A DNA stretch of 64,000 nt from NCBI RefSeq assembly GCF_014189855.1, contig NZ_BJFN01000003.1:62001-126000 (forward strand), read 5' to 3'. This DNA is from Buttiauxella sp. A111. GTDB taxonomy: Bacteria; Pseudomonadota; Gammaproteobacteria; Enterobacterales; Enterobacteriaceae. Both the position numbers and the translations under genes were made by a program. Positions 6,235 to 56,874 of the stretch are shown here, one piece after another; within the stretch, counting starts at the first letter, position 1, and each line of letters begins with the position of its first letter. A model generated the notes under the pieces. That model was not told the origin of the DNA. It did not search any database and saw only the letters and a program-made list of their open reading frames with translations.

Positions 6235-6597
6235 GATGCTTCCTCATGCAGTGGCGCGGCATCGTCCAATGACGACGTTTGGCCCCATTGTAAACCAGCA
6301 TCACGTAAGCACAAAAATTTAACGAATTAGCAATAGCTATACAATATAGCCTGTTCATAAAATTGACCATAAAATTAATGTCATTAATTACAAACAGTTG
6401 AAAATTAAACTCAGTCAAATAATTGTTTGATATGTACTATGTGTCGCATAAATGTCTCAATAATTCAAGATTGCCTGATTTTTTGTACTACAAGATCACA
6501 CATCTGCTTAAATCATGTAAACATTGATTGTAAGGTCTATGAAACATGATCTAAATTAGTTCGCATAAAATTAATGACACTAATACGGAGGTTACTC
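6235..6597. other. mntR upstream region and left prophage junction
   Basis: Holds the presumed mntR promoter (6235-6340), attL (6341-6355), and then about 240 bp of A+T-rich phage DNA before the PIN-like gene. At 6345-6351 an ATATAGC MntR half-site survives, but its partner GCTATAT is replaced by phage sequence. No gene is seen. Confidence 0.6.
6341..6355. other. attL core
   Basis: First copy of the 15-bp direct repeat TACAATATAGCCTGT. The match to attR stops abruptly on both sides (A versus T before, T versus G after). It contains the left half of the MntR operator that belongs to mntS. Confidence 0.88.
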
Positions 6598-7998
6598 TTG
6601 AAATCAGCTTTTTCGGGCTTCTACAGCACACCAAATGAATCACTCAGAGATATTTGGTTGTCTGATTCAACATTATTTGTATTTGATACTAATTGCTTAC
6701 TTAATCTTTATAGATGCGAAGATCATACTAGAGAAGATATTCTAAAAGTAATGAAAGAAATTTCATCAAGAACTTGGATACCTTTTCAAGTAGGACTTGA
6801 ATATCAAAGAAAAAGACGAGTTGTAATTGAAGACAGTATAGCCAGTTTAAAAAAAATAAAAAATGAGCTGCAACAAATTCACTCCCAAAACATTTTATCT
6901 TCCGGTGGGGTAAAAAAACATCTTTACAACTCTTTAAATGATGAAATATCAGAATTACAAAACCAAATTAAGACTCCAATAGAAGACTATATAAACACTA
7001 AAATTACGCCACGTATCGAAAGCAAACAACAAATTTCACAACATGATTTCATTCGAGATGAAATTGACTCTATAATATTAGATAATGTTGGGTCCAGACC
7101 AACACAAGAGAAAATAAATTCTATAAACACTGAAGGTGATCAACGTTATAAAAATAAAATCCCACCTGGTTTTATGGATATAAAAAAAAGTGACTCATAT
7201 TTCTTTTCTGGAGTGGAAATTCAAGCCAAATATGGAGATTTATACTTATGGAAAGAGATAATAGAAAAATCAAAATCAGATAATATTCATAATGTCATAT
7301 TCATTTGTGATGACCTAAAAGAAGACTGGTGGTTTATTCATGATGGAAAAACACATGGAGCTTTAGCTGCTCTTAAAACTGAGATATGCCAAAAAGCAAA
7401 CGTTAAAAACTTCAAACTTATTAGTCAACTTACCTTCCTTCATGAATCAAAAGAAAATCTTGCAAATATAGAAATACGTGAATCATCTTTAAAAGAAGTA
7501 GAAGAATTATCTCATATTTCAGTGGAGAATGATGAAGAACGCTATACATGGTCTAATTTGATTCACGATAATTATAATAAGAACTTTAACGATCAATTAA
7601 GCTTCTTCAAAAAACTCACATCACATCGTAATAATAAAACGCACCAGAACCCATCAGCTTTAGTATTAATCCAACTTGCGGATGAGGCATTACATGAATC
7701 CGAGAATAAAAAACATCAGGGTTCATCAATGCTGTCTGATTTCTACGTTTTTGAAAATGAGTTATTGAGTTATATTGATCTTGATGTATTCTCAGAATTT
7801 ACTAAAGTATTAAAATTAAAAATATCTCAAATGGAAGCATGTAGTGAAAAACTAACATCTCTTATTAAACAAATACAACATACAGGTTTTAACGATGTGC
7901 CAGAGATCCAAGATACTATTAGAGAATTGCGTGTTTTTAATTTCCTGATGGATTCGCTGATTGAAAAAGGAAATGAGTATTTAAAATATATTCTTTAA
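6598..7998 (+). CDS. PIN-like domain protein (PIN_8 type), prophage cargo
   Basis: 466 aa when started at TTG 6598, chosen because a perfect GGAGG (6587-6591) sits 6 nt upstream; the ATG at 6574 has no ribosome site. The N-terminus has the PIN-nuclease pattern of the PIN-like (PF18476-type) family: LFVFDTNCLLNLYR (Asp30), WIPFQVGLEYQRKR (Glu68), YGDLYLWKEI (Asp214) and VIFICDDLKEDWWF (Asp238/239), a plausible acidic metal site. Helical and coiled regions separate the motifs. It is markedly A+T-rich and lies directly inside attL, outside the conserved phage operons, as lysogenic conversion or defence genes do. Anti-phage or RNase activity is inference. Confidence 0.75.
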   Translation: MKSAFSGFYSTPNESLRDIWLSDSTLFVFDTNCLLNLYRCEDHTREDILKVMKEISSRTWIPFQVGLEYQRKRRVVIEDSIASLKKIKNELQQIHSQNILSSGGVKKHLYNSLNDEISELQNQIKTPIEDYINTKITPRIESKQQISQHDFIRDEIDSIILDNVGSRPTQEKINSINTEGDQRYKNKIPPGFMDIKKSDSYFFSGVEIQAKYGDLYLWKEIIEKSKSDNIHNVIFICDDLKEDWWFIHDGKTHGALAALKTEICQKANVKNFKLISQLTFLHESKENLANIEIRESSLKEVEELSHISVENDEERYTWSNLIHDNYNKNFNDQLSFFKKLTSHRNNKTHQNPSALVLIQLADEALHESENKKHQGSSMLSDFYVFENELLSYIDLDVFSEFTKVLKLKISQMEACSEKLTSLIKQIQHTGFNDVPEIQDTIRELRVFNFLMDSLIEKGNEYLKYIL

Positions 7999-30671: not shown

Positions 30672-30950
30672 CTTGCCTCCACCTTTAAAAGCACTGTATG
30701 CACATACAGTATATAGTGATAAATTCCTTTTAAAACAATTTTTTCCATTTTCTTGATGTTTGCATGCTGTGTTAATCCACACTTGGAGAGCATCTTAAAC
30801 TGGATGCTTTATGAGCACGTAATACACATAACACACCGGGAAAGAGGCAACCATCCAACGAAGTTTTCAATAACTTTGTTTAGTTGTAGGCGACATAAAA
30901 AAGATTGTAGGATTAGGACATAACCACTTTTGAAGGAAGGATTTTTTCTT
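30672..30950. other. Divergent control region, candidate cos segment
   Basis: Contains the SOS promoter of the leftward small gene (30694-30740) and the unseen promoter of the rightward DUF2806-like gene. A short inverted repeat AGCATC / GATGCT (30789-30808) lies between. By P2 gene order the packaging cos site should be close to here, downstream of the portal gene. No sequence was recognised as cos with confidence. Confidence 0.4.
30694..30709 (-). promoter_or_regulatory. LexA (SOS) box
   Basis: CTGTATGCACATACAG fits CTGT-N8-ACAG, with TA on either side as in the strong E. coli consensus. On the minus strand it abuts a promoter-like TTGTTT ... TATACT and precedes the small gene starting at 30671. 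Confidence 0.88.
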
Positions 30951-31988
30951 ATGTTTGGTTCAAAACTTGCGACTAAGATGTGGGAAACAGCTGCGGAAAA
31001 AGGCATTGGAGGACTTTTTAAGCCTTGGCAGATGCGCCGTGAGGGGAATACTAGCATTGAGCTAAAAAGAAAAGAAATGCTTATCATTGCCCAAACAGAA
31101 AAGGATATTGAGGGCATTAAAAAAGGTGAAGTCATCGTATCTTTGACTGATATAAACAATCCTAAGTTGATATCTATGAAGGATCCCGATTCTTTTCATT
31201 TTGATGACAAAAAAGAACCTCATCTAGACATTAAATCATTAATGCTCAATGCAAATAACTACAGCATCGCAAACGAAATACAAAAAGAGATAAATGTTAC
31301 AAAAGCATTATATATAGCCGAAGACATACTTTCGCTTGACCAGTCTGACCCACTAGATGATGAAATTGAAGCGGACTGGCTTATCCGTTGGAGAGACAGT
31401 GCCGCTACAACAAGTTCAGAGCATCTTCAACAGCTTTGGGGAAGGGTTCTGGCTGGTGAAATAAAATCACCGGGCCACTATTCCTTAAGAACTTTAGAAT
31501 TTATTAAAAACCTGACTCAACGAGAAGCTAAAGATATTGAGAAATTATTCTCACATTCATTCATAAACTTAATAATTAAAAGTGACGGTCTCGAAAAAAG
31601 CTTTGATGATGAAGTTATAGCAAATGAACTAAACTATACTTTTCTTTCGGAGATGCAATCTCTTGGGTTAATTAGTGGCTTTGAGTCTTTAGGAGTACAG
31701 ACAACCTTCATTTCAAAATCGGAAGATTTATTCATACAACATTTCATTTATAATGAAAAGGTCATGACTGTCACAAATGATAATGCACAAAAAAAGCTCG
31801 AAATTTCAGTATTTCTGTTCACGCCTCTCGCAGTCGAGTTAAGTTCATTATGCAAAATATTAATAAATTCACATTATTTGAACTTCGTAATTAAATATAT
31901 TAAAGGGAAAGGATTTAAAGTTACCATTGGTGATTTAACCACGGATGAAAATGGACAGAAATTCTCATCCAATAATGTAGAGGTTTAA
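30951..31988 (+). CDS. DUF2806-like protein, prophage cargo
   Basis: 345 aa from ATG 30951, with AAGGAAGG upstream; a TTG at 30930 is an alternative. The body (ALYIAEDILSLDQSDPLDDEIEADWLIRWRDSAATTSSEHLQQLWGRVLAGEIKSPGHYSLRTLEFIKNLT) matches my memory of the DUF2806 family. No membrane segment or catalytic motif seen. A+T-rich compared with neighbouring phage genes and inserted between the SOS gene and gpA, the place where P2 carries tin and old. An exclusion or defence role is inference. Confidence 0.72.
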   Translation: MFGSKLATKMWETAAEKGIGGLFKPWQMRREGNTSIELKRKEMLIIAQTEKDIEGIKKGEVIVSLTDINNPKLISMKDPDSFHFDDKKEPHLDIKSLMLNANNYSIANEIQKEINVTKALYIAEDILSLDQSDPLDDEIEADWLIRWRDSAATTSSEHLQQLWGRVLAGEIKSPGHYSLRTLEFIKNLTQREAKDIEKLFSHSFINLIIKSDGLEKSFDDEVIANELNYTFLSEMQSLGLISGFESLGVQTTFISKSEDLFIQHFIYNEKVMTVTNDNAQKKLEISVFLFTPLAVELSSLCKILINSHYLNFVIKYIKGKGFKVTIGDLTTDENGQKFSSNNVEV

Positions 31989-38500: not shown

Positions 38501-39541
38501 ATGCCTGTAAGAAAGCTTCCAGATGGCCAGTGGATTGCCGATTTCTACACGACAGATAGAAGTAATGGCAAACGGGGCAAGCGTATCCGCAAGAAGTTCT
38601 CCACTAAAGGGGAAGCGCTTGCTTTCGAAAACTACACACTGCAACAAATCGAGCAATCCCCCTGGCTGGGCGAAGGCAAAGATCATCGCACGTTAATAGA
38701 CCTGATCAACATGTGGCATGAACGCCACGGCGTAGCATTGCGTAACGGTTTAAAACGTAAGGATGCAATGAGCTGGGCGGCTGAATGTATGGGGTTTCCG
38801 CTTGCCTCAGAATTTAATGCACAACTATTCACCGCATACCGCGCAAAAAGGCTAGACGGCCAATTTTCCAGAACAAAACGAGTATCACTGGTTTCCCCCA
38901 AAACGATGAACCTTGAGCATGCTTACTTCTTGGCTATGTTCAATGAACTGAAACGTATAGGCGAATGGTCAGCCCCCAACCCACTGGAAAACGTCAGACA
39001 GTACCGGACCGATGAAACTGAGATGGCCTTTCTCACGTTTGAAGAAATAGACCAGCTATTACTTGAGTGCCGTCGTAGCAGAGTCGATTACCTTGAGCTG
39101 GTTGTGAAACTATGTCTGGCTACTGGTGCACGATGGAATGAAGCAGAATCTCTTAAGCGATCTCAGATTGCAGCCGGTAAGGTCACGTTCATAAAAACCA
39201 AAGGTAAGCGAAACAGAACAATCCCACTGGACGCAGAATTACTGGCAGAGATACCGGACAAGCACGGCGCGTTATTCCCAAACTCCTGTTACAACGCGTT
39301 TCGCTCAGCGTTGGAGCGAGCTGGTATTGAATTACCTGCTGGCCAGTTAACCCACGTATTACGGCACACCTTTGCAAGCCACTTTATGATGAACGGCGGT
39401 AACATTCTTGTTCTTCAAAAAATTCTCGGGCATGCAGACATCACAATGACTATGCGCTACGCGCATTTTGCCCCAAGTCACCTGGAAGAAGCATCACGAC
39501 TCAACCCCCTGAAATGTCGCAAAATTGTCGCGCCAGCTTAG
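38501..39541 (+). CDS. int: Tyrosine site-specific integrase
   Basis: 346 aa, P2-type integrase. Catalytic residues are visible as Arg211 (GARWNE), His285-x-x-Arg288 (HVLRHTF), His311 (LGHADI) and Tyr320 (MRYAHF). N-terminal arm-binding and core-binding domains precede. It ends 87 bp before attR. Apparently intact, so integration and excision with Apl/Cox should be possible. Confidence 0.95.
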   Translation: MPVRKLPDGQWIADFYTTDRSNGKRGKRIRKKFSTKGEALAFENYTLQQIEQSPWLGEGKDHRTLIDLINMWHERHGVALRNGLKRKDAMSWAAECMGFPLASEFNAQLFTAYRAKRLDGQFSRTKRVSLVSPKTMNLEHAYFLAMFNELKRIGEWSAPNPLENVRQYRTDETEMAFLTFEEIDQLLLECRRSRVDYLELVVKLCLATGARWNEAESLKRSQIAAGKVTFIKTKGKRNRTIPLDAELLAEIPDKHGALFPNSCYNAFRSALERAGIELPAGQLTHVLRHTFASHFMMNGGNILVLQKILGHADITMTMRYAHFAPSHLEEASRLNPLKCRKIVAPA

Positions 39542-49811: not shown

Positions 49812-50798
49812 ATGAAATTTCTCACTTTTCCTCGCCAACTACTTTGTGCCTCACTTATTACACTATGCGCAACAGGTGCAAATGCTGCAGACAAAATAAC
49901 CTTAAAGCTCGCTCATAATCTTGAGCGCAGCCATGTAGTACACCAAGCTTTTGAAGAACTTGCCAAAGAGGTACAACAACTTTCTGACGGCAATATGCGT
50001 ATTCGTATTTACCCTGGCAGCCAAATGGGCAGCGCCCGAGAAACATTGGAACTATTGCAAAATGGCGCACTGGATATGACAAAAGGTTCTGCCAGTGATT
50101 TAGAATCTTTCGACAATACTTATGCTATTTATAATTTGCCGTACTTATTTAAAGACCAGGCTCATTTTGATCGCGTGGTCTTTGGTGAGGTCGGCAAAGA
50201 AATTATGGACTCTACAAAAGATAAAGGCTTCTTTGCCATTTCTGCTTATGTCGCTGGCACTCGTAGTTTTTACGCAAAAAAACCTATTACCAAACCTGAA
50301 GATTTAAAAGGGCTTAAAATTCGTGTGCAGGCAAGCCCAACTACATTAAAAATGGTTGAGCTGATGGGCGGTTCACCAACACCAATTTCATTTGGTGAAG
50401 TGTATACAGCCATGCAGCAAGGTGTGGTAGATGGTGCGGAAAATAACGTTCCGTCATGGGTTCAAACTCGCCATATCGAAATCGCTAAAGTGTTCTCCGA
50501 AGATGAACATACTTCAATTCCAGACTTCCTCGTTATCTCCACTAAAACCTGGGCCAAGCTCTCTCCGGAACAGCAACAAATTCTGATCAAAGCGGCGAAA
50601 AACTCCGAAGCGTATCAACAAAAACTTTGGGCAAAAGTCGATTCAGATTCACGTGCTCAGGCTAAAGCAATGGGCGCAACTATCCTGACCGTTGATAAAG
50701 CCCCATTCCGCGCAGCGGTAAAACCTCTGTATGACGACTTCGCCAAAGATCCAAAACAAGCTGCACTGCTGGCCAAATTCGAAGCTGCGGCTGAGTAA
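49812..50798 (+). CDS. TRAP transporter substrate-binding protein (DctP family)
   Basis: 328 aa. Signal peptide MKFLTFPRQLLCASLITLCATGANA. DctP fold with LKGLKIRVQASPTTLKMVELMGGSPTPISFGEVYTAMQQGVVDGAENN: the conserved Arg in KIRVQ and the GAENN motif indicate carboxylate substrates, often sugar acids. Delivers ligand to the DctQM membrane pair encoded next. Exact substrate unknown. Confidence 0.9.
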   Translation: MKFLTFPRQLLCASLITLCATGANAADKITLKLAHNLERSHVVHQAFEELAKEVQQLSDGNMRIRIYPGSQMGSARETLELLQNGALDMTKGSASDLESFDNTYAIYNLPYLFKDQAHFDRVVFGEVGKEIMDSTKDKGFFAISAYVAGTRSFYAKKPITKPEDLKGLKIRVQASPTTLKMVELMGGSPTPISFGEVYTAMQQGVVDGAENNVPSWVQTRHIEIAKVFSEDEHTSIPDFLVISTKTWAKLSPEQQQILIKAAKNSEAYQQKLWAKVDSDSRAQAKAMGATILTVDKAPFRAAVKPLYDDFAKDPKQAALLAKFEAAAE

Positions 50799-50884
50799 TT
50801 TCGACGTTGTAGTGTAGATATCTTGCGGGTGAAATGAAGCAATTTCCCCCGCACAGGCAAAGCTAATTTTTTCAGGTATGCAAA

Positions 50885-51382
50885 ATGATACTTAAGCCCA
50901 TCAAGCTTGTGGTAGACCGGACTATTGCCACATTTTCAATACTGGTGATGATAGCATTGGTTTTCTGCGTGGTATGGCAGGTTTTCAGCCGCTACGTACT
51001 TAACCAGCCCAGCACATTAACGGATGAACTGGCGCGTTTTCTGATGATTTGGGTCGGGCTGCTGGGCGCGTCCTATACGGTTGGCGCACAACGTCACCTG
51101 TCCATCGATTTTCTTGCAATGATGTTGCCAGATAATAAAAAACCACTGCTTAATATCCTCATCAACACGCTGATTCTGCTGTTCTCCGGAATGGTTATCG
51201 TCAACGGCGGGTTGAAGCTCATTGAAAAAACATTAGCCACCTCACAGCTCTCTGCGGCGCTGCAAATCCCTATGGGTTATGTCTACATTGTGCTGCCGTT
51301 AAGTGGGGCAATCATGATGTTTTACTCACTCTATTTCATCCTGACTGACGCTCAGTCATTAGTCTGCAAAGAGGGTCAATAA
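50885..51382 (+). CDS. TRAP transporter small permease (DctQ)
   Basis: 165 aa, four membrane segments, with the DctQ signature VFSRYVLNQPSTLTDELARFLMIWVGLLGASY near residue 35. Partner of DctM. Stop overlaps the dctM start (TAATG). Confidence 0.9.
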   Translation: MILKPIKLVVDRTIATFSILVMIALVFCVVWQVFSRYVLNQPSTLTDELARFLMIWVGLLGASYTVGAQRHLSIDFLAMMLPDNKKPLLNILINTLILLFSGMVIVNGGLKLIEKTLATSQLSAALQIPMGYVYIVLPLSGAIMMFYSLYFILTDAQSLVCKEGQ

Positions 51383-52683
51383 TGGATACTTACATCGCCC
51401 TCACCTTATTTGGCGCGTTCTTCGTACTGGTGTTCATCGGCGTTCCCATCTCCTTTGCGATAGGGATTGCCACCGTCTCTTCGATGTTGTTGATGTTCCC
51501 GTGGGATATTGCGGTGATCACGGTTTCACAGCGTCTGGCAAACGGTCTGGATAACTTCGCATTGCTTGCAATTCCGTTCTTTATATTTGCCGGAACGCTG
51601 ATGAACAGCGGCGGAATAGCCATGAGGCTGATTAACCTGGCGCAAATTATGGTTGGTCGAATTCCAGGTTCACTGGGCCACGTTAATGTGCTGGCGAACA
51701 TGATGTTTGGTTCGATTTCCGGCTCTGCGGTCGCAGCAGCAGCAGCCGTCGGAGGGACGCTTTCTCCCATTCAAAATAAAGAGGGTTACGACCCGGCATT
51801 CTCAACTGCGGTTAACGTTTCATCCTGTATTACCGGGCTGCTGATCCCTCCTTCTAACGTTCTGATTGTCTTCTCGCTGACCGCGGGTGGCGTATCAGTA
51901 GCCTCGCTATTTATGGCCGGTTATTTGCCTGGCATATTAATGGGCTTGTCGATCATGCTGGTCTGCTGGATTATTTCCAAACGACGCGGCTATCCGGTAT
52001 CTGAACGTCCAACCTGTGCCATGGCAGCGAAAGCGTTCCTCGACGCGCTACCAAGTTTGCTGCTGGTACTGATTGTGATGGGCGGGATTCTTGGCGGTGT
52101 GTTCACTGCAACGGAAGCCTCAGCTATCGCGGTGGTCTACACCTTCGTGCTCTCCGTACTAATTTATCGTGAAGTGAAATGGCGCGATTTGCCAAAACTC
52201 ATTCTGGATTCGGTCGTCACCACCTCCATTGTTCTACTGCTGATTGGCTTCTCTGTTGGCATGTCCTGGGCTATGACCAACGCAGATATTCCGTACATGA
52301 TCAGTGACTCGTTGATGGGTATCTCGGATAACCCGCTGGTTATTCTGCTGCTGATTAATATCGTTCTGCTGATTGTCGGTATCTTTATGGATATGACACC
52401 AGCGGTGCTGATCTTTACGCCAATATTCCTGCCGATTGCGCAAGAGTTAGGTATGGACCCCGTTCATTTCGGCATCATGATGGTAGCGAACCTATGCGTC
52501 GGATTACTGACGCCACCCGTCGGTAGCGCACTGTTTGTCGGATGCTCGATAACTGGGGTTAAAATTCAGAATCTGATCATACCGCTACTCCCCTTCTACG
52601 CAGCGCTGTTTGTCTCGCTTATGCTGATTACCTATATCCCAGAGATCTCTCTGTTTATTCCAAAACTGTTGGGATTAATGTAA
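51382..52683 (+). CDS. TRAP transporter large permease (DctM)
   Basis: 433 aa, about 12 membrane segments. DctM family motifs are present: ALLAIPFFIFAGTLMNSGGIA, MFGSISGSAVAAAAAVGGTL and FGIMMVANLCVGLLTPPVG. Secondary, ion-gradient-driven importer core. E. coli has the homologous yiaMNO elsewhere; this three-gene set lies between mcbA and the PTS operon with no catabolic gene attached. Confidence 0.92.
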   Translation: MDTYIALTLFGAFFVLVFIGVPISFAIGIATVSSMLLMFPWDIAVITVSQRLANGLDNFALLAIPFFIFAGTLMNSGGIAMRLINLAQIMVGRIPGSLGHVNVLANMMFGSISGSAVAAAAAVGGTLSPIQNKEGYDPAFSTAVNVSSCITGLLIPPSNVLIVFSLTAGGVSVASLFMAGYLPGILMGLSIMLVCWIISKRRGYPVSERPTCAMAAKAFLDALPSLLLVLIVMGGILGGVFTATEASAIAVVYTFVLSVLIYREVKWRDLPKLILDSVVTTSIVLLLIGFSVGMSWAMTNADIPYMISDSLMGISDNPLVILLLINIVLLIVGIFMDMTPAVLIFTPIFLPIAQELGMDPVHFGIMMVANLCVGLLTPPVGSALFVGCSITGVKIQNLIIPLLPFYAALFVSLMLITYIPEISLFIPKLLGLM

Positions 52684-52691
52684 ACCCACAT

Positions 52692-52718
52692 AAAAAAGCG
52701 GTTTCTGACCGCTTTTTT
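52692..52718 (+). terminator. Terminator after the TRAP operon
   Basis: AAAAAGCGG-tttctga-CCGCTTTTTT, strong stem and T-run. Confidence 0.9.
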
Positions 52719-52844
52719 ACTTTAAGCAATCACATGATACTTTTATCAGTTATCTGTGAATTATCTCACTTTATTCACCGCTAACAATGTCTACTGTATG
52801 TGGCACAAGAATTGTCTCTTGTGATTACATACGGAGCGGTAATA

Positions 52845-54152
52845 ATGAAAAACCTGATGGCCGCAATAGAAGCAAAGCTGATGCCGCTTGCGGGAAGAAT
52901 GGCACAACAACGCCATCTCGGAGCCATTCGCGATGCGTATATCTCGTTTATGCCGTTTATTATTGTGGGTTCTATTCTGCTGGTTATTTCCTCTTTCCCA
53001 AGCACTGCTTATCAACAGTTTATGGCATCAATTTTTGGTGAAGGTTGGTCTGCCACTATAGAAATTCCGTTTAATGCCATTTTCTCTACCATGGCGGTGT
53101 TTATTAGCTTTTTGGTCGCTTACCGTCTGGCCGAGCGTTATGACATTGACAAAATGTCAGCCGGTATTTTGTCGCTCTCCTGCTTTTTGATCCTCACACC
53201 TTTTGCTAAAACTCAGGAGATTGGCAACTTGATCCCGATGGAATGGCTGGGATCAAAGGGGTTATTTGTGGCGATGCTGGGGGCGCTTGCCAGCACGGAA
53301 TTATTTGCCTGGATGCTACGTCAAAACTGGGTGATACGTATGCCAGACGGCGTGCCACCAGCAGTACAGAAATCATTTGCCGCACTGATCCCATCACTGC
53401 TGATACTGGTCATTGCACTCGCAATTCGTGTGCTGTTCGCCAAAACGGATTACCACACCATTCACCAGTTTGTTTATGAAGTCCTCGCAACGCCAATTCG
53501 TCACTTTGGTACCTCCTATATCGGGGCGCTGTTTACCTGCTTTAGCATTACCAGTTTGTGGTCGGTCGGTATTAACTCCGGCTCGATGGTCAATGGCATC
53601 CTGCGTCCTTTCTGGATGGAAAACCAGATGGAAAATCTGGCGGCAACTCAAGCCGGTTTGCTGCCACCGCATGTGGTAACCGAACAGTTCTACGACATGA
53701 TTTGGATGGGGGGTGCCGGTGCAACTTTGTCTCTGGTGATTGCTATGCTGCTCTTTGCCCGCAGCCAGCACATTAAAAACGTTTCACGCCTTGCCGCAGG
53801 CTCTTCCATCTTCAACATTAACGAACCGGTGCTCTTTGGCCTGCCGGTTATCATGAACCCCATCATGCTCATCCCATTCAACCTGGTTCCGCTGGTGCTG
53901 GTTACCGTGCAGTACATCGCGATGTCGATAGGTTGGGTTGCCACCACTACTGGAGTGTATATCCCATGGACACTGCCTCCGGTGCTAAGCGGTTTTATCG
54001 TTACCGGACATCTCAGCGGTGCCATCATTCAGCTTATTAACCTGCTGATCGGCGCCATCATCTATCTGCCATTCCTTAAAGTGGTGGATAAGCAATATCG
54101 GGCCAATGAAACCCCGGCGCTTGTCCCATCAACCAAACCCGCCACGGAGTAA
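52845..54152 (+). CDS. PTS EIIC component, lactose/cellobiose family
   Basis: 435 aa from ATG 52845 with GGAGCGG upstream. About 10 membrane segments. Family motifs: N-terminal RHLGAIRDAYISFMPFIIVGSILL, central FWSVGINSG-like SLWSVGINSGSMVNG, and the sugar-binding loop FNINEPVLFGLPVIMNP. It forms the membrane channel for a phospho-sugar import system of the chitobiose/cellobiose type. EIIB is encoded four genes on in the same operon; no EIIA is present in the window. Confidence 0.9.
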   Translation: MKNLMAAIEAKLMPLAGRMAQQRHLGAIRDAYISFMPFIIVGSILLVISSFPSTAYQQFMASIFGEGWSATIEIPFNAIFSTMAVFISFLVAYRLAERYDIDKMSAGILSLSCFLILTPFAKTQEIGNLIPMEWLGSKGLFVAMLGALASTELFAWMLRQNWVIRMPDGVPPAVQKSFAALIPSLLILVIALAIRVLFAKTDYHTIHQFVYEVLATPIRHFGTSYIGALFTCFSITSLWSVGINSGSMVNGILRPFWMENQMENLAATQAGLLPPHVVTEQFYDMIWMGGAGATLSLVIAMLLFARSQHIKNVSRLAAGSSIFNINEPVLFGLPVIMNPIMLIPFNLVPLVLVTVQYIAMSIGWVATTTGVYIPWTLPPVLSGFIVTGHLSGAIIQLINLLIGAIIYLPFLKVVDKQYRANETPALVPSTKPATE

Positions 54153-54159
54153 GTAAAAC

Positions 54160-55128
54160 ATGACGTTATCGACAAACTGGGGCGTGATAGCGACCTGGCG
54201 CATGGCCTGGGAAGGGGTCAGTGAAGCCGCGCAATTATTGCAAGATAAAAATAATGCCAGCGATGCTGCAGTACGGGCCGTAACTTGTGTGGAAGATTAC
54301 CCATATTATAAATCCGTAGGGTACGGCGGTTTGCCAAACGAGCAAGGCGTTGTCGAACTCGACGCTGCGTTTATGGACGGCTCAACGCTTGCCATCGGCG
54401 CAGTCGCCAGTATCCGCGACATCGCTAACCCCATTCTGGTGGCCCAGGCATTAAGCCGCGAACGCTTTAATAGTTTTATGGTGGGCGAAGGTGCTCAAAC
54501 CTGGGCTTTTGCCCACGGCTTTGAACGCAAAAACATGCTGACGGACCGCGCCCATCAGCATTACCTGAAACGCAAACGTGAAACACTGGATCGTGGTTTA
54601 AGTCCGTACACCGGGCACGACACCGTCGGCGTTATCACGCTCGACCAAAATCAGCAAATGTGTGTCGCCACCTCAACCAGCGGGTTGTTTATGAAACGCC
54701 CTGGCCGCGTCGGTGACTCCCCCGTCTCCGGTTCAGGATTTTATGCCGATAGCCAGATTGGTGCCGCAACAGCCACCGGTCTTGGCGAAGATCTAATGAA
54801 AGGCTGTATCAGCTACGAAATTGTCAGCCGCATGGGGCGCGGCATGTCACCTCAACAGGCGGCAGAATCCGCAGTTTACGATTTGGAAAGCCAACTGATT
54901 GCCCGCTATGGCCGAGCAGGAGATTTGTCTGTCGTTTGCATGAATAATCACGGTGAATACGGTGCCGCAACCACTATTGATAACTTCTCGTTTTCGGTCG
55001 CCACGCCCGCACAAGCGCCAGCCGTGTTTTTGACCACTCGCGAAGGCAAGCACACGCTCATTCGCCCCGCAGATCAGGCCTGGCTTGATGCCTACCTGCA
55101 GCGCATAACTGCGGAGGTGATTGTATGA
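54160..55128 (+). CDS. Glycosylasparaginase-like N-terminal nucleophile hydrolase
   Basis: 322 aa, asparaginase_2 family. Autocleavage/nucleophile site GHDTVG (Thr155) with downstream GRVGDSPVSGSGFYAD and the substrate loop AATATGLGED. The HDT form and the GRVGDSP motif are those of glycosylasparaginases rather than plain isoaspartyl peptidases. Such enzymes split the bond between Asn and N-acetylglucosamine. No signal peptide, so cytoplasmic, which fits PTS-imported substrate. Overlaps the next gene by 4 bp. Confidence 0.85.
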   Translation: MTLSTNWGVIATWRMAWEGVSEAAQLLQDKNNASDAAVRAVTCVEDYPYYKSVGYGGLPNEQGVVELDAAFMDGSTLAIGAVASIRDIANPILVAQALSRERFNSFMVGEGAQTWAFAHGFERKNMLTDRAHQHYLKRKRETLDRGLSPYTGHDTVGVITLDQNQQMCVATSTSGLFMKRPGRVGDSPVSGSGFYADSQIGAATATGLGEDLMKGCISYEIVSRMGRGMSPQQAAESAVYDLESQLIARYGRAGDLSVVCMNNHGEYGAATTIDNFSFSVATPAQAPAVFLTTREGKHTLIRPADQAWLDAYLQRITAEVIV

Positions 55129-56594
55129 AATGCCAGATAACAACCCTTGCACAATGCCGGACAGACGCCCATTTAATGTTGTGGAAAGCGCATACGGATG
55201 CGTGGCCAGAAGCATTGCGCCCGCTGCTTGCTGAAATGACGCACGGTGATGAGCCACAATCCACCCGCTTTGGTTTAAACGGCCTCTGCCAGCAGCTCAC
55301 TCTTTTGCCTTCGAGCCAGATTGAGCGCCCCGAAATTCTGCGCCAGCTAACCGAAAGCCTGAATACTCTTTTGCCCAGCCCCGTATTGCATCCCGTCGCG
55401 CTGGATATTTCCGCTTTCAATCTGGCAGACCGCACCGTATTTACTCGCCTGCGTACGCTGCTGGTTGCGTTGATGAACCGCTTTTATCAGCTCCCACAAT
55501 TGGGTTTTCGACAAGGCCAGCAAGAAAGCAACGGGCAGCTTTGGCTTTTGAGCACAGAGCACAACACGCTTGCCGATGAGTTGGCCGCGCAAACTCAGGC
55601 TATTGCTCAAGGCATGTTTCTATCGCGCAAACTTTCCGACACACCTGCAAATGGCTGCCGTCCGCAGGATGTTGCGCAGCAGGCGCAAGCTTGGGCGAGC
55701 GCCCATCCGCAAACTCACTGCGATATTCTGGATGAAAACACCCTCCGTGAGCTGGGTTTAGGCTGCCTTGATGCCACAGGGAAAGGCAGCAAGAATCCTC
55801 CACGACTGGTGACACTTCGCTGGCAAGGCGCGGCAGAAAACGCGCCATATTATGCCTTTGTCGGCAAAGGCATTACTTTCGATACCGGCGGGCTGTGGCT
55901 CAAGGAAGGCGAAGGGATGCGCACCATGAAGTACGACATGTGTGGTGCCGCCGTGGTCTTCGGGCTAATGGAGATTGTTAAAACGCTACAACTGCCGCTG
56001 AACGTGGTCGCCGTGATGGCGCTGGCAGAAAACATGCCAGGTGAAAATGCCATGCTGCCGGGTGATGTGGTGAAATCGCATGCAGGCCATAGCGTCGAAA
56101 TTATTAATACCGATGCAGAAGGTCGCCTGGTACTGGCAGATGCGCTCAGCTACACCGCAACACGATTTAAACCGGCGGCATTAATCGACGTCGCCACGCT
56201 GACAGGTGCAGTAGTCAAAGCATTGGGTTACGACATTTCGGGTCTGATGAGTAATAACCCGAAATTGAGCCAACAACTACAGCAGGCGGCCGACTTAACC
56301 CAAGACCGGATCTGGCCGCTACCGCTGGACGAAAGTTTTGATCCGCAGGTCAAAAGTCATATTGCCGATCTGACCAATACCCCCCCTAACAACGCGGCGA
56401 TTGCCGTCTCAGCCGCTCATTTTTTAAGTAAGTTCTGCCATCAGTTGCCATGGGCGCACTTAGATGTCAGCGGTACCGCACTCAGCCGCGGTAAATTCAC
56501 GCAGGCCAGCGGCCGTCCCGCTCTGCTATTGACGCAATACTTACTCGATCTGAGCAAAGGAAACTCCAATGAAAAAGATTCTACTGGTATGTGA
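55125..56594 (+). CDS. M17 leucyl aminopeptidase-family peptidase
   Basis: 489 aa. Metal and catalytic residues of the M17 family are complete: Lys248 and Asp253 in VGKGITFDTGG, Asp271, and Asp330, Glu332 and Arg334 in NTDAEGRLVLADAL. The N-terminal about 160 residues diverge from PepA. Cytoplasmic. It probably trims peptide parts of the substrate handled by the operon. Its last 26 bp overlap the EIIB gene. Confidence 0.9.
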   Translation: MKCQITTLAQCRTDAHLMLWKAHTDAWPEALRPLLAEMTHGDEPQSTRFGLNGLCQQLTLLPSSQIERPEILRQLTESLNTLLPSPVLHPVALDISAFNLADRTVFTRLRTLLVALMNRFYQLPQLGFRQGQQESNGQLWLLSTEHNTLADELAAQTQAIAQGMFLSRKLSDTPANGCRPQDVAQQAQAWASAHPQTHCDILDENTLRELGLGCLDATGKGSKNPPRLVTLRWQGAAENAPYYAFVGKGITFDTGGLWLKEGEGMRTMKYDMCGAAVVFGLMEIVKTLQLPLNVVAVMALAENMPGENAMLPGDVVKSHAGHSVEIINTDAEGRLVLADALSYTATRFKPAALIDVATLTGAVVKALGYDISGLMSNNPKLSQQLQQAADLTQDRIWPLPLDESFDPQVKSHIADLTNTPPNNAAIAVSAAHFLSKFCHQLPWAHLDVSGTALSRGKFTQASGRPALLLTQYLLDLSKGNSNEKDSTGM

Positions 56595-56874
56595 TTTAGG
56601 GATGTCGACCAGTCTGGTCGTCAAACGGATGCAAGAAGCTGCCGCAAAACGTGAGCTGGAGGTTGAGATCCAGGCGAAAGGAATGAGTGATTTTAAAAAC
56701 GCGATTACGGCTTTTGACTGCGCGCTGCTCGGCCCGCAGATTGCTTATAAACTCGCTGATTGCAAGCAAATCGCCGCCGCGCTCAACAAACGCGTTGAAA
56801 CCATTAACATGATGGATTACGGAATGGTCAATGGAGAGAAGATCCTCGATCACGCACTATCCCTCTGTAATTAA
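56569..56874 (+). CDS. PTS EIIB component, lactose/cellobiose family
   Basis: 101 aa. Phosphorylation site Cys8 in ILLVCDLGMSTSLVVKRM, the P-loop-like signature of EIIB-Chb/Lac proteins; the segment CALLGPQIAYKL also fits. Phosphorylates the sugar entering through the EIIC at 52845. AAAGGAAA precedes the ATG. The stop codon TAA lies in the terminal repeat of an ERIC element. Confidence 0.92.
   Translation: MKKILLVCDLGMSTSLVVKRMQEAAAKRELEVEIQAKGMSDFKNAITAFDCALLGPQIAYKLADCKQIAAALNKRVETINMMDYGMVNGEKILDHALSLCN

Follow-up and report, generated by a model that had tools for sequence, protein, structure and literature searches.

Why would a sugar transporter of the phosphotransferase system (PTS) be encoded together with a glycosylasparaginase and an aminopeptidase? 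The question is raised by four genes in a 64-kb stretch (hereafter the window) of the 4.89 Mb genome of Buttiauxella sp. A111 (the window's genome), which encode the PTS subunit EIIC, a glycosylasparaginase (AGA), an M17-family aminopeptidase and the PTS subunit EIIB. The operon is real and conserved. It is of the type of the ega locus of Enterococcus, most likely serving the use of N-acetylglucosaminyl-asparagine (GlcNAc-Asn), and the proteobacterial form differs in its peptidase and its regulator; the latter, derived from a transposase, is the less expected part.

An earlier reading of the letters alone (the sequence-only reading) had listed these four genes, pointing to Thr155 in the HDT motif and to GRVGDSP in AGA, and had described the cluster as lacking EIIA and a phospho-glycosidase. 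All four genes stand at the coordinates given there and have strong Pfam matches (Table 1), and neither of the two missing components is present among the genes of the cluster. The intergenic distances are 7, –4 and –26 nt. The EIIC start is most likely the ATG at 52845, with GGAG a few bases upstream; a start at the GTG of the longer frame (52800) is less probable.

Table 1. Features of the operon and its surroundings (window coordinates).
Feature	Position	Strand	Remarks
Terminator-like hairpin (AGCGGT/ACCGCT, then T run)	52697..52718	+	Read by eye; absent from terminator scanner output; between TRAP genes and cluster
Candidate operator for the PfaR-like protein, AATCACATGATACTT	52728..52742	+	Conserved upstream motif
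CRP-like site TGTGAATTATCTCACT	52755..52770	+	1 mismatch to TGTGAN6TCACA
PTS EIIC, lactose/cellobiose family, 435 aa	52845..54152	+	PF02378, 4.4e-56
Glycosylasparaginase (AGA), N-terminal nucleophile (Ntn) hydrolase, nucleophile Thr155	54160..55128	+	PF01112, 2.7e-62; HDT, GRVGDSP
M17 aminopeptidase	55125..56594	+	PF00883, 3.8e-110; metal-ligand motifs VGKGITFDTGG, MKYDMCG, NTDAEGR intact
PTS EIIB, lactose/cellobiose family, Cys8	56569..56874	+	PF02302, 1.7e-18
PfaR-like regulator, 274 aa	56996..57820	–	N-terminal helical DNA-binding region (~residues 1–110) and RNase-H/DDE-like fold without conserved catalytic acids

Conservation and composition of the operon

For comparison, contigs were scanned with AGA: 134 stretches matched, 119 of them encode relatives, and the best 80 of these 119 were analyzed as loci. 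The loci were split by a script on the presence of a PfaR-like regulator gene (see below), and this split coincides with the taxonomy of the records, 32 loci being proteobacterial and 48 belonging to Bacillota/Fusobacteriota (the other 48); hence the presence of the regulator at 32/32 proteobacterial loci is a genuine finding. Absences among the other 48 loci are uncertain, as in several of them the contig stops close to AGA.

The conservation of gene order, named in the sequence-only reading as a point to check in other genomes, has been observed: EIIC, AGA and M17 follow each other in the same order on one strand in 30/32 proteobacterial loci, more than a chance arrangement, and the fullest form, EIIC–AGA–M17–EIIB–EIIA, is found in Serratia, Atlantibacter, Hafnia, Izhakiella, Klebsiella sp. 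BIGb0407, uncultured Cedecea, Providencia and Histophilus. EIIC is encoded near AGA in all 32 proteobacterial loci and in 26 of the other 48, EIIB in 14 (one being a remnant) and 29, and EIIA in 10 and 29, respectively; at least one PTS subunit accompanies AGA in 30 of the other 48 loci. The peptidases differ between the two groups: M17 is near AGA in 30/32 proteobacterial and 0/48 other loci, and an M20 peptidase, in 0/32 and 32/48. The occurrence of M17 where others have M20, next to the same enzyme, suggests a frequent benefit from trimming down to free GlcNAc-Asn. By comparison with PDB sequences, the M17 protein matches bacterial cytosol aminopeptidases, and K248, D253, K260, D271, D330, E332 and R334, which act as metal ligands and the catalytic Lys/Arg, are invariant in 31/31 sequences.

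In a panel of 295 genomes drawn from the order of the window, AGA matches at E <= 1e-40 are present in 12, seven of them 63 to 100% identical. No near match to the operon was obtained in the E. coli collection (megablast only), and the plasmid collection yielded 14 records with an AGA relative, the identity not exceeding 58.2%.

EIIC reaches 446.1 bits with TIGR00410, the subfamily model for lactose/cellobiose IIC (cut-off 236), and 233 with the chitobiose IIC model, under its cut-off of 760. EIIB scores 67.4 against PF02302 (cut-off 23.6) and 80.2 against TIGR00853, below the cut-off of 110, and Cys8, its phosphorylation site, is kept in 44/45 aligned EIIBs and missing only in Cedecea colo (L019), where EIIB is a remnant of 40 residues. 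According to tblastn, EIIB is intact in 13/32 proteobacterial loci, reduced to that remnant in one and undetected in 18, among them one Buttiauxella locus (L017, from a record marked unverified) and L047, which ends with its contig 166 bases after M17. EIIA, detected in the same way, is missing from the window locus, all four Buttiauxella loci and six Cedecea-type loci of the window's clade. On the AGA tree, a quick one with support under 80 for 29 of its 84 inner branches, the M17 loci require three changes for EIIB and two for EIIA. EIIA appears to have been lost in the window's lineage, with some relatives having lost EIIB too, and the remnant in L019 together with the undetected EIIB in L017 suggests a stepwise loss of PTS subunits.

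Two genes of the lactose/cellobiose EIIA family (PF02255) are located on other contigs of the window's genome, each near a gene of glycoside hydrolase family 4 (GH4), one within a chb-type cluster and the other beside a second lactose/cellobiose PTS; we infer that either may serve the window PTS. At this second PTS (L109, C13:7000-19000 of the same genome), the EIIA–EIIB genes are divergent from EIIC and the GH4 gene, and the adjacent open reading frames (ORFs) are, we assume, RNA-polymerase-like.

The hydrolase and the predicted pathway

The best PDB sequence match of AGA is the Flavobacterium glycosylasparaginase (1.3e-51), and weaker ones are 2zak, named L-asparaginase (9e-34), and a chain named isoaspartyl peptidase/L-asparaginase (7.9e-33); the score against the NCBI beta-aspartyl-peptidase equivalog is 122.6 bits, with a cut-off of 567. 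Autoproteolysis and catalysis in this family depend on the HD-T, Thr, Arg, Asp and Thr-Gly residues, and Trp11 of the Flavobacterium enzyme, corresponding to W13 here, has a role in sugar binding. W13, H153, D154, T155, R183, D186, T206 and G207 are invariant in all 81 aligned AGAs (80 loci and the window), and T173 is kept in 76. The other PF01112 protein of the genome (G000:C1:922905-923825), which we take to be IaaA, has Leu at the W13 position and no His-Asp before Thr. Judged by these residues and by the Trp, the window hydrolase is of the glycosylasparaginase type (EC 3.5.1.26). Three of five remoter homologues retain W13, the His-Asp pair and the residues of catalysis; L014 has Asn at W13. 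L010 (G026:C54:21775-22692), 36% identical to AGA, retains Trp13 and Arg14, has Ala for the Thr nucleophile and Val/His for Arg/Asp, and is probably a pseudo-enzyme.

Gene content and order, their conservation, the catalytic residues, the nag and EIIA genes elsewhere in the genome, the upstream motifs and the predicted regulator fold together make it quite probable, in our view, that this is a gammaproteobacterial PTS operon for GlcNAc-Asn with AGA and M17, controlled by the cAMP receptor protein (CRP) and a PfaR-like protein. GlcNAc-Asn, by itself or as part of a very short glycopeptide, would be imported by EIIC and EIIB with phosphorylation of the sugar, for which one of the genome's two other lactose/cellobiose PTSs would lend its EIIA. 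Adjoining amino acids would be trimmed off by the M17 aminopeptidase, leaving GlcNAc-Asn in free form for AGA, which would cut the sugar–Asn amide bond and yield aspartate and 1-amino-GlcNAc phosphate, the latter expected to decay to GlcNAc-6-phosphate and ammonia; NagA and NagB would then channel the sugar into glycolysis. Transcription would be controlled by cAMP-CRP and by the dedicated PfaR-like protein acting on AATCAyrTGAkACTT upstream of EIIC.

In the window's genome, NagA (559.6 bits), a protein of the glucosamine-6-phosphate isomerase family, an EIICBA resembling NagE and an ROK protein resembling NagC are encoded side by side; the nag names in this cluster are our assumption, the isomerase family gene being presumably nagB. 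The proposal of the sequence-only reading, in which GlcNAc-Asn or a small glycopeptide enters through the PTS and the sugar–Asn bond is then cleaved, is backed by inference from the AGA type, the conserved order, the NagE-like PTS, NagB and NagA, and that main idea is probably correct, though not without precedent. For its further suggestion that peptidoglycan-like fragments are used, the sole point in favour is a MupG gene near 7 of the other 48 loci; as MupG is near none of the 32 proteobacterial ones, uptake of such fragments was rejected as the principal explanation.

The precedent is the ega (enterococcal glycosylasparaginase) locus. Judging by the title of the study of Combret et al. (Res Microbiol), the use of glycoprotein-derived GlcNAc-L-asparagine reportedly depends on the ega catabolic and transport enzymes. 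On an E. raffinosus replicon we observe, in a row, genes for GntR, Sapep dipeptidase, AGA, EIIB, EIIC and EIIA. The ega locus of E. faecalis, in the relevant passage of a later paper, encodes the glycosylasparaginase EgaG and two subunits of a lactose/cellobiose PTS, EIIB and EIIC, and contains the pseudogene of a putative oxidoreductase; the dipeptidase and a regulator of the GntR type are under another promoter (PMC11160706, citing Combret et al.). Contrary to the earlier impression that no PTS of such composition had been described, this locus, as presented in that passage, and its E. raffinosus equivalent already join AGA, lactose/cellobiose EIIB and EIIC, a peptidase and a regulator, as in the window. 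The window differs by M17 instead of the ega dipeptidase (Sapep, M20, in E. raffinosus), by a PfaR-like protein instead of GntR, and by the absence of EIIA, which is present in the E. raffinosus locus. As for the origin of AGA-linked EIICs, those of the window and of E. raffinosus fall into different sub-clades of a quick tree comprising EIICs from 30 of the 58 loci having one and only three other EIICs.

A second comparison is provided by the alf-2 operon of Lactobacillus casei (AsnA2, PepV, AlfH, AlfC), which, according to the passages of PMC6960285 concerned with it, likewise has a cytoplasmic glycosylasparaginase acting after import and a peptidase gene in the cluster. It differs in having its own major facilitator superfamily transporter and a fucosidase instead of a PTS, in the need for a sugar kinase and in that the peptidase is not essential; AsnA2 was shown there to release GlcNAc from GlcNAc-Asn (PMC6960285). 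One passage of the same paper states that glycosylasparaginases need free alpha-amino and alpha-carboxyl groups, and the title of a paper cited in it says that the amino group is not needed. The glycosylasparaginase of Elizabethkingia (Flavobacterium) meningoseptica aligns with the window AGA in the catalytic Thr, Arg, Asp and in Trp; it differs by a signal peptide, in contrast to AsnA2 (same source, in part), and by Asn and Trp at the positions where the window subfamily has Arg14 (beside Trp13) and Arg138. These two arginines are candidates for phosphate recognition, no more.

The open-licence papers searched included none on such a proteobacterial PTS–AGA operon or on its control by a PfaR-like protein. 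If correct, the assignment would mean that glycoprotein stubs are used through a PTS not only by way of Enterococcus-type loci but also in Enterobacterales, Pasteurellaceae and Vibrionaceae, the substrate being specific and assayable.

Several observations weigh against the GlcNAc-Asn pathway. No PTS subunit was detected near AGA in 18 of the other 48 loci, some of them cut by contig ends. Neither M17 nor M20 is found near AGA in both Enterovibrio loci and in the PTS–AGA loci of Bacillaceae, Shimazuella, Tepidanaerobacter and Thermosediminibacter, so the peptidase is frequent and not essential; the dispensable PepV of L. casei also belongs here. Arg14 and Arg138 are Arg in 62/62 PTS-bearing loci but also in 15/18 without a PTS, and no residue is proven to bind sugar phosphate. 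Finally, EIIC also passes the NCBI cellobiose IIC equivalog (446.1 with a cut-off of 434.45). The latter score, the aminopeptidase within the cluster and the Pfam family shared by AGA and the isoaspartyl-peptidase-like protein of the genome would suit an operon for peptide scavenging, in which the hydrolase is an isoaspartyl peptidase or a general beta-aspartyl amidase and the PTS sugar, e.g., cellobiose, is a separate matter. We consider this improbable: the nearest solved relatives are glycosylasparaginases, AGA and PTS recur together across phyla with differing peptidases, and the other PF01112 protein lacks Trp13 and the HD before the nucleophile, therefore the cell already owns another such enzyme.

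EIICs of the lactose/cellobiose/chitobiose family, to which the window EIIC belongs, often carry disaccharides, and the chb-type operon of the genome could process freed chitobiose phosphate. The PTS might then import a larger or different N-glycosyl asparagine, such as chitobiosyl-Asn or one with a non-GlcNAc sugar, on which AGA would act. The cluster contains no glycosidase, however, GlcNAc-L-asparagine is the compound named in the title of the ega study (Combret et al.), and AsnA2 prefers GlcNAc-Asn over its fucosylated form, as stated in a passage of PMC6960285, so that we see only a slim chance for such a substrate.

Returning to GlcNAc-Asn as the more likely substrate, Tepidanaerobacter (L066) has genes of the CutC, amidohydrolase and glucosamine-6-phosphate isomerase families in the 16-kb stretch that holds AGA and the PTS, on the opposite strand. 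We take the amidohydrolase to be NagA-like; this neighbourhood fits GlcNAc-6-phosphate as the product.

CutC, generally known as a copper homeostasis protein, often accompanies AGA, being encoded near it in 34 of the other 48 loci (L039, L043 and L053–L056 among them) and in one proteobacterial locus (L027), and in L066 it stands next to the NagA-like and NagB-like genes. This hints at a role of CutC in amino-sugar or GlcNAc-Asn catabolism; no paper on CutC together with glycosylasparaginase was found in the open-licence literature. A GrdB-like gene is near AGA in 16 of the other 48 loci and in 0/32 proteobacterial ones. In many Bacillota (L039, L053, L054, others; L125) a short GrdB-related protein is encoded within the PTS–AGA cluster, the L039 copy scoring 239.8 bits against NF041545.

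The PfaR-like regulator and its candidate operator

Neither the neighbouring regulator nor its likely operator figures in the sequence-only reading. In Pfam, the 274-aa regulator matches helix-turn-helix families, and below the cut-offs it resembles transposases of IS481, IS630 and IS21; no match to PDB sequences below E 0.049 was obtained. The best Foldseek matches of its AlphaFold2 model (mean pLDDT 87.4, pTM 0.73) are IstA and retroviral integrases, with E from 1.9e-07 and query TM-scores of only 0.27–0.39 among the 50 shown. In an alignment of 28 PfaR-family sequences (the window, 22 of the 32 loci and five pfa loci), all 26 invariant columns lie within residues 7–105, the late columns being gapped because the pfa members are shorter. 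No conserved acid was found at the strand ends taken as catalytic; Asp130 is present in 10/28. On this model, the regulator would be transposase-derived; its predicted fold is integrase-like, and the catalytic acids are not conserved.

At the proteobacterial loci its gene lies at most 215 bases from the operon in 31 cases; in L026 the distance is 2.3 kb. In 19 loci the gene is upstream of the operon and divergent from it, in 13 downstream, and the copy in L049 encodes just 190 aa. In the 295-genome panel, relatives at E <= 1e-8 occur in 57 genomes, i.e., in all seven with a close AGA (within approximately 2.2 kb of it) and in 50 without one. Of these 50, 14 were checked, using ketoacyl-synthase and phosphopantetheinyl transferase queries typed by Pfam: a frame matching the former stands directly behind the gene in 14/14, which is the pfa arrangement and therefore identifies these members as PfaR, and a match to the latter is found nearby in 8/14. 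PfaR is described, in a passage of PMC4744452, as a likely regulator of the omega-3 fatty acid synthase (pfa) genes. PfaR of the pfa operons (for synthases of eicosapentaenoic and docosahexaenoic acids) and the window regulator share the family, the conserved N-terminal region, the integrase-like character without conserved catalytic acids, and a related upstream motif; PfaR differs in being encoded directly upstream of the ketoacyl-synthase gene and in a strongly diverged C-terminal half.

The motif AATCAyrTGAkACTT is shared upstream of EIIC, and its strict match AATCANNNGATACTT occurs in the window's genome once, at 52728–52742, with zero matches of the reversed-motif control in the same genome. 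In the motif set of 33 loci (32 proteobacterial ones and the window), AATCANNTGAKACTT is found upstream of EIIC with at most one, two and three mismatches in 27, 32 and 33 loci. When five pfaR upstream regions are added, the counts are 28, 35 and 37 of 38 (Markov-shuffle means 0.0, 0.9 and 6.65). The pfa counterpart of the operon motif AATCANNTGAkACTT is AATCANNCGATACT, found within approximately 330 bp of the PfaR-family gene in 8/14 pfa genomes (9 of 19 hits). The looser form AATCANNTGAKAYTT is at the operon in 4/6 other operon-bearing genomes, on the opposite strand in G274. Binding of the PfaR-like protein to the shared motif is likely, as the motif is conserved across three families and reappears at an unrelated operon that has a regulator of this family too.

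Within 70 bases after the motif, a CRP-like TGTGAN6TCACA site is present with at most three mismatches in 33/33 loci and with at most one in 24/33 (shuffle means 8.74 and 0.18). The offsets between the two sites, 36, 27, 35 and 16 in 12, 11, 6 and 2 of the 33 loci, fit whole helical turns poorly; the offset of 18 in L033 is probably a wrong pick.

The evidence for this operator has its weak sides. The shuffle comparison flatters the motif, since the pattern was read from the same sequences; the looser form is not at the operon in two of the six other operon-bearing genomes (G166, G188) and has nine further matches elsewhere in the 12 genomes searched, six of which lack the operon; and the related motif is missing at 6/14 pfa loci, namely all five of group g20 and G194. 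The neighbour could be no regulator of the operon at all, the upstream motif being inherited DNA or a site of another factor, as might be expected of a transposase-like protein in loci related by descent, with its gene on either side of the operon and most of its relatives in genomes without a close AGA. We find this rather unlikely: the gene persists at every proteobacterial locus in both arrangements, its conserved part is the N-terminal region, the related motif recurs beside pfaR of an unrelated pathway at more than half of the loci checked, and PfaR itself is described as a likely regulator (PMC4744452, in part).

The operon, then, appears to be under control of a tamed-transposase regulator. 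We lean, with some reserve, toward a broader view as well, namely that a dead DDE transposase family was adopted as a dedicated regulator of two unrelated pathways, the operons for omega-3 fatty acid synthases in marine-type bacteria and those for the GlcNAc-Asn PTS in Gammaproteobacteria, with nearly the same operator (AATCA-N3-GATACT) in both, beside CRP at the PTS operon. It would make a test case for whether a dead transposase regulates a sugar operon in a sequence-specific way, the predicted 15-base site having a single strict match in the window's genome.

Neighbouring features of the window

A DctPQM-type tripartite ATP-independent periplasmic (TRAP) transporter is encoded on the same strand directly upstream of the cluster (window 49812–52683). 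A common operon with it is unlikely, because the terminator-like hairpin stands in between and TRAP genes were detected only in the four Buttiauxella loci of the 80.

A DUF2806 gene (30930–31988) and a PIN_8 gene (6574–7998), for neither of which PADLOC gave a match, lie respectively inside and beside a region at approximately 8972–39541, which, judging from the translations, we take to be a P2-like prophage. The same region contains an integrase-like ORF at 38501–39541.

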